From positions 249,156 through 313,155 of the forward strand of contig NZ_LMMV01000023.1 of the NCBI RefSeq assembly GCF_001422405.1: DNA of 64,000 bases, given 5' to 3'. Of this stretch, positions 11,692-17,163 are shown in pieces. Under the pieces are notes generated by a model. That model did not search any database and had not been told where the DNA came from. It saw nothing but the letters and a program-made list of their open reading frames with translations. How positions within the stretch are numbered: the stretch's first letter is position 1; every line of letters begins with the position of its first letter. The DNA is from Pseudorhodoferax sp. Leaf267. GTDB lineage: Bacteria > Pseudomonadota > Gammaproteobacteria > Burkholderiales > Burkholderiaceae_C. The translations under genes were made by a program, and so were the position numbers.

Positions 11692-12705
11692 TCACGAACG
11701 TGGGTGCGTGCCGATCTGGTGGGCGCAGGTGGTGCCGGTGGCGAAGTCGCGCAGGTTCGCCAGCGTGACCTGCGAGATCTCGCGCAGCGCCTCCACCGTG
11801 AAGAAGCCCTGGTGGCCCGTGACCAGCACGTTCGGGAAGGTCATGAGCCGCTGGAACTGGTCGTCTTCGATGATGTCGCCCGAGCGGTCCTGGAAGAACA
11901 GCGCGCCCTCCTGCTCGTAGACGTCGATGGCCAGGTGGCCGAGGTGGCGCGACTTCAGCGCGGTGATCACGGCTGCGGTGTCCACCAGCGCGCCGCGCGA
12001 GGTGTTGACCAGCATGGCGCCAGGCCGCATGCGGGCCAGGGCGGCGGCGTCGATCAGGTGGCGCGTGGCGTCGGTCAGCGGGCAGTGCAGCGAGACGATG
12101 TCGGCGCGCTGCAGCAGCGCGTCCAGCGGCACCATCGTGCCCAGCGCGGCAAAGGCGGGCGAGGGCGCCGGGTCGCAGCCCAGCACCACGCAGCCCATGC
12201 CGTGCAGGATGCGCGCGGTGGCCATGCCGATCTGGCCGGTGCCGACGATGCCCACGGTCTTGCCGTGCAGCGTCACGCCGAGCAGGCCGTCCAGCGCGAA
12301 GTTGCCCTCGCGCACGCGGTTGTAGGCGCGGTGGGTGTTGCGGTTCAGCGTCATGATGAGGGCCAGCGCATGCTCGGCCACGGCTTCGGGCGCATAGGCC
12401 GGCACGCGGGCGACGAACAGCCCCAGCCGCGCAGCCTCGGCCACGTCCAGCTGGTTGAAGCCGGCGCAGCGCAGCAGCACGGCGCGCACGCCGCCCTGGG
12501 CCAGGGCCTGCAGCGTGGGCGCATCCAGCCGGTCGTTGACGAACACGCAGACGGCCTCGCAGCCCATCGCCAGCGCCGCCGTCTCGGGGGCCAGGGCGGC
12601 GTCGAAGTACCGGCATTGCAGGCCGGCGGGGCCGGCGCCCCGAGCACGGGCTTCCTCCAGGAAACGCCGGTCGTAGAGGCGGGCGCTGAACACGGCAAGT
12701 TGCAT
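11692..12705 (-). CDS. D-2-hydroxyacid dehydrogenase, D-lactate dehydrogenase-like
   Basis: A 337-residue NAD-dependent D-2-hydroxyacid dehydrogenase, close in length and motif order to fermentative D-lactate dehydrogenase LdhA. The split catalytic domain starts M-Q-L-A-V-F-S; the NAD-binding motif is V-G-I-V-G-T-G-Q-I-G (about 150-159); the catalytic Arg is in N-T-S-R-G-A-L-V-D, the acidic partner follows in the I-D-V-Y-E-Q-E-G segment, and the catalytic His is in T-G-H-Q-G-F-F-T. The expected reaction is pyruvate + NADH to D-lactate, in the cytosol. Other 2-ketoacids remain possible. It is divergent from fusA. Confidence 0.88.
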   Translation of the reverse strand: MQLAVFSARLYDRRFLEEARARGAGPAGLQCRYFDAALAPETAALAMGCEAVCVFVNDRLDAPTLQALAQGGVRAVLLRCAGFNQLDVAEAARLGLFVARVPAYAPEAVAEHALALIMTLNRNTHRAYNRVREGNFALDGLLGVTLHGKTVGIVGTGQIGMATARILHGMGCVVLGCDPAPSPAFAALGTMVPLDALLQRADIVSLHCPLTDATRHLIDAAALARMRPGAMLVNTSRGALVDTAAVITALKSRHLGHLAIDVYEQEGALFFQDRSGDIIEDDQFQRLMTFPNVLVTGHQGFFTVEALREISQVTLANLRDFATGTTCAHQIGTHPRS

Positions 12706-12807
12706 GGGGACTCCTGGCGGACGGAAGGGGCAGCTTAGCCCCTTGAAATCGCGGCATGCAGCATTACCTGGATTCGTCTAAGCTCTTTGCCTTACCTGGA
12801 GTCTCCG

Positions 12808-12843
12808 ATGTACCAAGTCGCCCCCCTGCCCACCCGCCCTTGA
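12808..12843 (+). CDS. Candidate 11-codon leader peptide upstream of fusA
   Basis: A short open frame encodes [11 protein letters not shown] and stops with TGA. It has a good ribosome site (GGAG at 12798-12801, 6 bases before ATG), unlike fusA itself. The stop codon overlaps the first arm of the hairpin series described in the next entry. Proline-rich peptides that end in proline are slow to translate and terminate, which is what a ribosome-sensing leader needs. Translation is inferred; no homologue is known to me. Confidence 0.5.
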
Positions 12844-12909
12844 GCCGACTCCGCGCGGCTCTCCCGTTTGTTCGGGACCGGCCGCCGCTTTTTTTGTGCG
12901 GTCCGGTCC
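12842..12909 (+). promoter_or_regulatory. fusA: Attenuator-like leader of fusA: competing hairpins and T-run
   Basis: Three structures can form between the leader-peptide stop and fusA. Hairpin A pairs 12842-12847 with 12856-12861 (GAGCCG/CGGCTC). The second is a strong terminator-type stem: 12853-12859 pairs with 12881-12888 (one bulge), with 12862-12866/12873-12877 inside it, followed directly by seven T at 12889-12895. Hairpin A and this stem share bases 12856-12859 and exclude each other. A third pairing, GGACCGG 12875-12881 with CCGGTCC 12903-12909, would also break the terminator and fold the T-run into its loop. This is the architecture of transcription attenuation coupled to leader translation. 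Confidence 0.6.
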
Positions 12910-12928
12910 ACCCTGCAGTGAGACTGCC

Positions 12929-15037
<2,109 letters not shown>

Positions 15038-15079
15038 GTGGCCAGCGGGGGCGCTGGCCGCCTGCGCAAGAATGCGCGC

Positions 15080-16537
15080 ATGGTGCGCAAGCATTCCCCG
15101 TTGCTGTGGTGGCTGCTGGCCTGGGCCGTGCTGAGCCTGGCCGGCAGCCTGCTGCTGGCGCGCCTGGCGCTGGAGCGCCACCATGCCGCGTTCGAAACCG
15201 AAGCGCGCATCGTGCACCGGCTGCTGAGCCAGCGCGTGGTCGCGCACGACGCGGTGCTGGCCACGTTGGCGCTGCTGCAGCCCGGTGGCGACGACGCGAT
15301 GGCGCGGCTGCCCTCGGTCTACCCGCAGATCCTGTCCGTCAGCCGCAGCATTGCGGCCACGCCATGGGCCGACGCCGCGCTGCGCGAGGCCCAGGCCATT
15401 TCCCGCACGGCCAAAGGGCCGGTTCTGGCCGACATGGACATCGCCCAGGGCCGCTACCGCATGGTGCTGGCGGCCGAGCCCGCCGCCTATGCGCTGCAGG
15501 TCGACATCCGCAGCATGGTGCCCTGGAGCGAATGGCCCATGGCGCCGGCCGACAGCCCCGTCGCCATCGCGCTCGAGCTTGGCGGCCAGCGCCTGGCGCT
15601 GCAGCCCGGCCGCATCGCGGAGCGCGGCTGGTCCTACGACTTCCACAAGACGCTGGCTGCGGCCAGCCAGCCCTTCGACGTGGTGGCCCGGCGCACCGTG
15701 CGCTGGGCCGAGCTGCCCTGGGGCCAGATGCTGGCCTGGTCGGCCATGCTGGCCGCCGCGCTGGCGGTGGCGCGCTGGCTGCAGCAGCAGGCGGCCGCGC
15801 GCCGGCGGGCCGAGGCGCTGCTGCGCCTGGGGCAGGTCGGCCGCCTGAACGCGCTCGGCGAGCTCGCGGCCGGCATGGCGCATGAACTGAACCAGCCGCT
15901 GACCGCGCTGCTGGCCAATACCCAGGCCGCGCGCCGGCTGATCGCCGAGGAGCCGCCCGAGCTCGACACGGCGCGCAACGCCATGGGCCAGGCCGTGGAG
16001 CAGGCGCGCCGCGCGTCCGAGGTGGTGGGCCGGCTGCGCCGCGCCGTCGAGCGGCCCGAGCTGGGCGCCGCCGTGCAGCCGGTGGACCTGCACGCCGCGG
16101 TGCTCAAGGCGCTGGACCTGCTGGAGCCTGAGCTGCGCCGGCGCGGTGTCGCGCTGCAGGTCGATGGCATGGCCGGGCTGCGCGTGCTGGCCGACCCTGT
16201 CGCGCTGGAGCAGATCGTGCACAACCTGCTGCTCAACGCGCTGCAGGCGCTGGAGCAGACGCCGGCCGCCGGCCGCAGCCTGGCCTTGTCGCTCGCGCGC
16301 GAGCCGGCGCAAGGCGTGCTGGCCGTGCAGGACAGCGGCCCCGGCCTGCCGGCCGAGGTGCTGCCCCATGTGTTCGAGCCGTTCTTCAGCACGCGCGCGG
16401 GCGGGCTGGGCCTGGGCTTGAGCCTGTGCGAAAGCCTGGCCAGCGGCATGGGCGGCAGCCTGAGCGCGGCCAATGCGGCGTTGCGCGGGGCCGTGTTCCG
16501 CCTGCGCCTGCCCTTGGCCGAGGGCGCCGCTGCATGA
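15080..16537 (+). CDS. Membrane sensor histidine kinase
   Basis: A 485-residue class I kinase. Transmembrane helix 1 spans about residues 8-27 and helix 2 about 217-235, leaving a periplasmic sensing domain of about 190 residues with no recognised motif. The phosphorylated residue is His268 in M-A-H-E-L-N-Q-P, the FixL/TodS-like H-box. The ATPase domain follows, with H-N-L-L-L-N-A-L (N box), D-S-G-P-G-L-P (G1) and G-L-G-L-G-L-S-L (G2). The start is the ATG at 15080. A GTG directly after fusA is possible, but an AAGAAT box lies just before the ATG. It overlaps the response regulator gene by four bases, making a two-component operon. Confidence 0.9.
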   Translation: MVRKHSPLLWWLLAWAVLSLAGSLLLARLALERHHAAFETEARIVHRLLSQRVVAHDAVLATLALLQPGGDDAMARLPSVYPQILSVSRSIAATPWADAALREAQAISRTAKGPVLADMDIAQGRYRMVLAAEPAAYALQVDIRSMVPWSEWPMAPADSPVAIALELGGQRLALQPGRIAERGWSYDFHKTLAAASQPFDVVARRTVRWAELPWGQMLAWSAMLAAALAVARWLQQQAAARRRAEALLRLGQVGRLNALGELAAGMAHELNQPLTALLANTQAARRLIAEEPPELDTARNAMGQAVEQARRASEVVGRLRRAVERPELGAAVQPVDLHAAVLKALDLLEPELRRRGVALQVDGMAGLRVLADPVALEQIVHNLLLNALQALEQTPAAGRSLALSLAREPAQGVLAVQDSGPGLPAEVLPHVFEPFFSTRAGGLGLGLSLCESLASGMGGSLSAANAALRGAVFRLRLPLAEGAAA

Positions 16538-17163
16538 CGCCGAACACCCACGCGCCGCTGGTGCACCTGATCGACGACGACGCAGCCGTGCGCGAGGCGC
16601 TGGCGCTGCTGATCGCCACCATCGGCCTGCGCGTGCAGGCCTGGGCCGACCCGGCGGAGTTCCTTGCGCGCTTCGACCGCCAGGCCATCGGCGCCATCGT
16701 GCTCGATGTGCGCATGCCCGGCATCGGCGGGCTCACGGTGCTGGAGCGGCTGGTGGACGAGGGCGTGGACCAGCCGGTGATCCTGCTGACCGGCCACGGC
16801 ACGGTGGAGATGTGCCGGCGCGCGTTCAAGGCCGGCGCGGCCGAGTTCCTGGAAAAGCCGGTCGACGAAGACCTGCTGATCGAGACGCTGCAGAACGCCG
16901 TGCGCCAGCATGTGCGCTCGCGCGAGCGGCACGAGGCAGACCGCGCCGCGCGCGAGCGCTATGCCCAGCTGTCCCCACGCGAGCGCGAGGTGCTGGGCCT
17001 GATCGTGGGAGGGCTCACCAACAAAGAGATCGGCCGCGCACTGGGCCTGTCGCCGCGCACGGTGGAGGCGCACCGCGCGCACCTGTTCGACAAGCTCGAG
17101 GCCGCCTCGCTGGCGCATCTGATCCGCGGCTACGCCAGCCTGGCGGACGCCGACCCCGCGTAG
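16534..17163 (+). CDS. Response regulator, FixJ/NarL type with LuxR DNA-binding domain
   Basis: The 209-residue protein has an N-terminal receiver domain (acidic pocket I-D-D-D near residue 13-16, phospho-acceptor Asp58 in V-L-D-V-R-M-P-G, Lys in L-E-K-P-V-D) and a C-terminal LuxR-type HTH (L-S-P-R-E-R-E-V-L-G-L-I, then T-N-K-E-I-G-R-A-L and S-P-R-T-V-E-A-H-R). This is the FixJ arrangement and pairs it with the kinase upstream, with which it overlaps by ATGA. A 6-bp inverted repeat immediately downstream, in front of the HbpS-like gene, is a candidate target site. Confidence 0.93.
   Translation: MTPNTHAPLVHLIDDDAAVREALALLIATIGLRVQAWADPAEFLARFDRQAIGAIVLDVRMPGIGGLTVLERLVDEGVDQPVILLTGHGTVEMCRRAFKAGAAEFLEKPVDEDLLIETLQNAVRQHVRSRERHEADRAARERYAQLSPREREVLGLIVGGLTNKEIGRALGLSPRTVEAHRAHLFDKLEAASLAHLIRGYASLADADPA

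Follow-up and report, generated by a model that had tools for sequence, protein, structure and literature searches.

A predicted leader-peptide attenuator upstream of a second EF-G gene in Pseudorhodoferax and Hylemonella

Both amino-acid operons and drug-resistance genes are known to be controlled by attenuators that respond to translation of a leader. In the trp and leu attenuators, a short leader open reading frame (ORF) is combined with mutually exclusive RNA pairings such that a terminator forms without translation and again after full translation, while a ribosome positioned mid-leader permits read-through.

The comparisons that follow draw on parts of the published accounts. In Pseudomonas aeruginosa, the PA5471.1 leader peptide and predicted terminators precede armZ, a gene induced upon ribosome impairment, and the sections of the paper used here present transcription attenuation in this Gram-negative bacterium as proposed, not proven (PMC12057347). 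We liken armZ by its layout, not by its leader sequence, to the locus described below, which lies upstream of a second EF-G gene, fusA2; the armZ product is an anti-repressor of an efflux operon and not, as that of fusA2 is, a translation factor (PMC12057347, in part). The hflXr leader of Listeria (rli80) has a 14-residue ORF, alternative folds, and a premature terminator upstream of a gene whose product acts on ribosomes; according to the excerpted text it differs in its RLR stalling motif, in its induction by particular drugs, and in its target, a ribosome-splitting factor homologue (PMC6310831). Attenuators also precede the ribosomal-protection genes tet(M) and tet(Q), the latter being listed as translation level in the portion of the source considered (PMC5418344); these are drug-resistance genes, whereas fusA2 scores as a genuine EF-G. 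The fusB gene, whose product acts on EF-G, is probably under translational attenuation in the account given by part of another paper (PMC12190993). In streptococci, a terminator-like rpsL-leader element precedes fusA in the str operon, between rpsG and fusA; it is discussed as a ribosomal protein leader, and the passages of that report on which we draw describe no leader peptide, whereas the fusA2 leader has an ORF (PMC2965389). Searches of the open-licence PMC literature gave no description of a leader-peptide attenuator for an EF-G gene.

The window, by which we mean the entire 64-kb stretch of Pseudorhodoferax sp. Leaf267 DNA that was analysed, encodes a complete second EF-G (Table 1). FusA2 matched its EF-G equivalog model at 1169 bits (cut-off, 659) and the protection-protein model tet_protect at 406 bits, under the cut-off of 775 for that model; the latter match indicates that the protection-protein and EF-G families are related. 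An initial sequence-only reading of the locus had called this fusA a stand-alone copy, which agrees with the finding that the genome's other EF-G, a 78% identical paralogue, is on another contig. The gene ending upstream of that other copy (L002) we take to be rpsG, that is, the str operon. Upstream of the fusA2 leader is a 2-hydroxyacid dehydrogenase gene (11692-12705, minus strand) that is divergent from it, so the terminator described below does not close a co-directional upstream gene. On the other side, 15038-17163 (plus strand), directly after fusA2, encodes a two-component pair: a histidine kinase with HisKA and HATPase_c domains, and a response regulator that is FixJ-like and has a GerE domain. 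A role for this pair was considered and set aside; among 14 loci compared in relatives, 2 (L054 and L064) carry it behind fusA2, and several of the remaining 12 stop too soon to show whether it is there.

The same reading had pointed to a leader ORF with a Shine-Dalgarno (SD) sequence, a hairpin at its stop codon (A), an overlapping terminator stem (B), seven T residues, and a further pairing (C) ahead of fusA, and all of these can be read directly from the sequence (Table 1). The 5' arm of hairpin A begins inside the leader stop codon, and its 3' arm is part of the 5' arm of terminator B. Pairing C ends 7 nt before an SD-like AGTGAG of fusA2. In the fold of the window's leader, GGAGTC (12798-12803) can pair as well with GACTCC (12847-12852), which lies partly within the loop of hairpin A and partly next to it.

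Table 1. Positions in the window of fusA2 and of the predicted elements upstream of it
Feature	Coordinates	Strand	Basis or remark
Putative RpoH (sigma-32 type) promoter	12742-12767	+	Sequence match; CTTGAA 12742-12747, 14-nt spacer, CATTAC 12762-12767
Leader SD, GGAG	12798-12801	+	Invariant in 9/9 leaders
Leader ORF, 11 codons	12808-12843	+	Read from sequence, putative translation; ATG 12808 to TGA 12841-12843
Hairpin A, proposed antiterminator	12842-12861	+	6 bp GAGCCG/CGGCTC, 8-nt loop; 6/6 pairs invariant in 9/9
Intrinsic terminator B, stem	12853-12888	+	Predicted, by sequence; T7 12889-12895 directly after
Pairing C	12875-12909	+	12875-12885 (3' arm of B) with 12898-12909, the strand past the T-run; T-run inside loop
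fusA2, complete second EF-G	12929-15037	+	ATG 12929; TIGR00484 EF-G equivalog

The T-run of terminator B is the sole run of seven or more T or A residues in the window, which has a GC content of 70%. B received a d score of 28.6 in the window and of 3.3 to 21.7 in the other eight leaders described below, and thus above 0 in 9 of 9; the T-run is interrupted in 8 of the 9 leaders, and d is only 3.3 to 8.4 in three. Dinucleotide shuffling of 12706-12928 yielded a terminator with d of at least 28 in 0 of 500 trials, and a scan of both strands of the 64 kb, restricted to strong T tails, found two terminators with d of at least 15, B included. The other one (9634, minus strand, d 31.1) lies between a plus-strand and a minus-strand gene and looks ordinary. 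Folding energies of the leader region were only mildly low (z scores of -1.80 and -1.82), and B was missed by a simple search for terminators in 12300-15300, probably because of a bulge and a mismatch in the stem. At the Rfam gathering cut-off, no matches were found in the window or in three relatives' loci; below it, the sRNA family Hrs13 resembled 12831-12895 at 20 bits against a cut-off of 52.

The leader was found upstream of fusA2 in nine genomes: six of Pseudorhodoferax, the window's genus, in which it was present in 6 of 6 genomes examined, and three of a second genus (Hylemonella gracilis and its kin). When FusA2 was used to search 200 family genomes, at least 10 fusA2-type copies with 82% identity or higher were returned, one of them the window's own. 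Among those 10 listed copies, the leader precedes three, all of the window's genus, and by eye is absent before the seven of other genera (L011-L017; pattern count, 0). A degenerate pattern applied to 399 family genomes gave seven matches including the window's genome, one of them in another genus. The covariance model R1 matched 3 of 26 genomes of the second genus, and only these three among 12 second-genus genomes checked have a second EF-G (89-91% identity). Across 398 family genomes, R1 gave eight matches including the window's genome and no further genus, and model R2, run over 399 genomes of the order, recovered the window's own leader only; both large searches used stricter filters, under which weak copies may go undetected. 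A strict pattern scan of a named genome collection returned 14 stretches, 6 before fusA and 8 without fusA nearby; the named matches were Pseudorhodoferax soli, P. aquiterrae, P. sp. Leaf265, Leaf274, a strain deposited as Variovorax boronicumulans, and Hylemonella gracilis. At L078 (G399:C1:3778430-3780295), where the leader layout is the usual one, the fusA2 frame stops early, at about 627 residues as opposed to 702, and this copy may be broken.

In a protein tree of 31 EF-G sequences, the nine leader-bearing FusA2 proteins formed one clade with support 100/100. Under midpoint rooting, the window's FusA2 is the first branch of this clade, outside Hylemonella and the five other Pseudorhodoferax sequences, so features common to the window and the rest are likely ancestral to the clade. 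The window's fusA1 groups inside the genus, unlike its fusA2 (L001), which lies outside five species of its own genus and the second genus; this mismatch in placement hints at gene transfer or fast change.

All nine leaders retain the ORF with its ATG, TGA, final proline codon, SD, and frame, at a length of 36 or 42 nt (11 or 13 codons), and the segments flanking the ORF vary in length by 1 to 3 nt. The peptides of relatives include MYQVARTLAFTHP (three genomes), MYQIARTPVLLVP, MYQVAYPLISP, and MYPSAHTLTLP. In the last, a one-base insertion and a one-base deletion cancel, leaving the frame intact and the residues changed, with MYPSA in place of MYQVA; the peptide starts with MYQ[VI]A in the remaining 8 of 9. 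The leader frame thus appears to be under selection, and its residues much less so.

Invariant columns made up 34 of 38 in the paired arms of A, B, and C versus 6 of 30 in the loops (Fisher p 8e-9, uncorrected for relatedness and computed on columns and sequences that are not independent). Five of the nine leaders are close relatives (L039, L038, L040, L009, and L010); the others are L069, L067, L068, and the window's. The loop of hairpin A is invariant in 2 of 8 columns. Pairing C can form 11 of 11 pairs in 9 of 9 leaders, with one double change (A-U in the window, G-C elsewhere), a single event that 60 of 500 shuffles reached as well. In its aligned register, B showed no covariation among the nine leaders; the window's B is in a shifted register, with, by eye, a T-A pair where relatives show G-C. 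A helix between leader codons and the loop of hairpin A contains one double change, Arg CGC to His CAC with a loop C to T, and 195 of 500 shuffles scored as high. There is little covariation to count because the paired arms hardly vary. Conservation of the ORF and base pairs in relatives had been proposed as a check on the sequence-only reading; both are kept in nine genomes, and this check did not refute it. Covariation across the nine leaders is nevertheless thin.

Upstream of the leader ORF, the sequence resembles a promoter of the RpoH type, for which the consensus is a CTTGAA -35 element, a spacer of about 13 to 15 nt, and a CCCCAT-like -10 element. CTTGAA is invariant in 9 of 9 leaders, while the preceding 29 columns are 40% identical. 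The groES promoters of six of these genomes read CTTGAA-N14-CCTTAT-like, with the same -35 element and, by eye, the same 14-nt spacing as in the leader. At the -10 position are CATTAC in the window, a weak match, CATCAC or CCCTAC in the five relatives, and CGCCAT or CACCAT in the second genus. The second genus thus likely has a heat-shock promoter here, and the window may have one. Scanning 12300-15300 for sigma-70 promoters found none; a TAnnnT block, which in the window reads TAAGCT (12779-12784), shows partial conservation, and no -35 partner for it was seen. Just past the putative promoter, the block TCGTTTGnTCTA (ATTCGTCTA in the window; 12772-12784) is conserved; it may contain the transcription start or act as a further promoter element.

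To represent the ribosome in structure prediction, we folded the RNA to the end of the T-run from an assumed start site (12775 in the window) and treated the ribosome as an unpaired footprint. With no ribosome, the predicted terminator probability was 0.79 to 1.00 in 9 of 9 leaders, and with the stop codon in the A site it was 0.81 to 1.00 in 9 of 9. With a ribosome mid-leader, at the best codon, the antiterminator A reached at least 0.99 in 7 of 9; the value was 0.65 for L068 and 0.00 for the window. Ribosomes freed A up to codon 10 of a 13-codon leader or codon 8 of an 11-codon leader. All three states exceeded 0.8 in 6 of 9, a seventh leader being at 0.79. Across 18 settings, which varied the temperature (30 or 37 C), the footprint, and the start site (by plus or minus 12), the minima for the seven clear leaders were 0.76 for the antiterminator, 0.79 for the terminator without a ribosome, and 0.72 for the terminator at the stop; L068 was borderline, its antiterminator ranging from 0.29 to 0.79.

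The contribution of the leader codons was gauged with 200 dinucleotide shuffles of these codons per sequence. The no-ribosome terminator was matched or exceeded by 3, 4, 3, 0, and 9 of 200 shuffles (L039, L038, L040, L009, and L010, respectively) and by 0, 5, and 0 of 200 (L069, L067, and L068), against 37 of 200 for the window, whose codon order thus does not stand out from the shuffles. The three-state test (all above 0.8) was passed by 31, 25, 76, 36, 116, 44, 5, and 0 of 200 shuffled leaders, in the order just given, and by 0 for the window. Since shuffled leaders often pass it, the three-state pattern alone is weak evidence, and most of the switch comes from A and B themselves. In 8 of 9 leaders, the codons favor the no-ribosome OFF state above chance, via pairing with the loop of hairpin A, although codon order adds little in L068, whose shuffles average 0.96 for this terminator. 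The codon-loop helix forms 8 or 9 of its 9 pairs in seven of the sequences; L067 has 5 of them and the window 4. Shifted by 2 columns, the helix pairs well too.

The window's own leader makes the weaker case. It has 11 codons and lacks the codon-loop pairing, the SD-loop pairing being possible instead. Its terminator B has more pairs and the uninterrupted T7, and at the T-run B wins in every ribosome state at equilibrium. Hairpin A is predicted to form first, with a probability of 0.95 while the 3' arm of B has yet to be synthesized and of 0 with a ribosome near the stop. So stable is B in this copy that a switch would have to be kinetic, A being made before the 3' arm of B is transcribed; in this model the window's switch may thus be kinetic, or the copy may be set to OFF.

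Several explanations could account for these features. The sequence-only reading had assigned the leader to the attenuator type, a leader ORF with mutually exclusive folds, and this assignment gains support from the nine genomes, drawn from two genera, that retain it while the ORF changes length in frame. It had also proposed sensing of a proline-rich peptide, and the leader could more broadly be an attenuator that senses one given amino acid, such as proline or leucine, or one peptide, such as a nascent chain that stalls the ribosome, comparable to the trp and leu leaders or to drug-induced stalling peptides. The window's peptide does have 4 prolines among 11 residues, the Pro-stop and the MYQ[VI]A start recur as described above, and by eye one Leu codon falls late in the permissive zone of each leader. 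However, only the last proline, before the stop, is kept in all nine, the inner prolines are not, and none of the nine peptides has a run of codons for one amino acid. The mid-leader codons differ as well: P6 L7 P8 in the window; R6 T7 L8 A9 and then S or F at position 10 in the five relatives; and T7 P8 V9 L10 (L069), Y6 P7 L8 (L067), and H6 T7 L8 (L068) in the second genus. The replacement of MYQVA by MYPSA with the frame restored likewise argues against a peptide-specific sensor, and we consider sensing of one amino acid or peptide improbable, although leucine is a possible signal. It also seems unlikely that B is simply a constitutive terminator, which would generate a short RNA (the mRNA of a small peptide or an sRNA) with fixed read-through into fusA2 and no sensing. 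The dominance of B in every predicted state of the window would fit this explanation, as would an sRNA family as the sole, weak Rfam look-alike; yet hairpin A, for which a terminator has no need, is invariant in the nine leaders, in 8 of 9 the codon order favors the no-ribosome terminator over most shuffles, and the reading frame is preserved.

Regulation could instead act on translation of fusA2, with A, B, and C setting access to its start or with a protein such as EF-G binding the hairpins. The proximity of C to the fusA2 SD-like sequence and its formation potential in all nine leaders are compatible with such control, and the U-rich loop of C could serve as a protein-binding site. When fold A or fold B was forced, however, the mean unpaired probability at the fusA2 start differed by at most 0.09 for the SD and by at most 0.19 for the AUG; this similar access argues for transcription as the level of control. 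Translation-level control moreover leaves the leader ORF and the T-run unexplained, and we regard it as very improbable. From the sequence comparisons, the fusA2 leader is probably a ribosome-mediated transcription attenuator, an attenuator of a known kind with an unusual target, an EF-G gene.

Such a ribosome-mediated attenuator would operate as follows. Transcription would start about 33 to 35 nt before the leader ORF, and RNA polymerase would then meet a choice. Without a ribosome, leader codons 4 to 7 would pair with the loop of A, A would not be made, B would form, and transcription would stop. A ribosome that reached the stop codon in time would cover the 5' arm of A with its footprint, and B would again form and end transcription. 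A ribosome held mid-leader would cover the leader codons, allowing A to form and to take the 5' arm of B, with read-through into fusA2; after read-through, C, which can form only once the T-run has been transcribed, may hold the 3' arm of B too. The initial proposal that slow termination at the leader stop switches the gene runs counter to these predictions, in which a stop-bound ribosome covers A, favors the terminator, and so lowers rather than raises fusA2 expression. The constant Pro-stop may instead hold the ribosome at the stop and thereby secure the OFF state.

The predicted logic of ORF, folds, and three states is that of the trp and leu type. The fusA2 leader differs from those leaders, and from his, in having no kept run of control codons, in its target, a translation factor, and in the extra strand C after the T-run. 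As no single amino acid has such a run, the leader probably responds to slow elongation of any kind. Too little translocation capacity would slow elongation and so lead to more EF-G, and with the leader OFF in the absence of a ribosome and ON with a slow one, the cell could tell the two apart. Tentatively, then, the leader may be a feedback sensor in which slow translocation at almost any early codon, distinguished from absent initiation, turns on a second EF-G under a heat-shock promoter and matches capacity to need. If true, this would be a direct loop from ribosome speed to the factor that sets ribosome speed. Placed before an ordinary EF-G paralogue, such an attenuator would offer a natural readout of how fast ribosomes elongate, and it would also suggest a purpose for the second EF-G in these bacteria.
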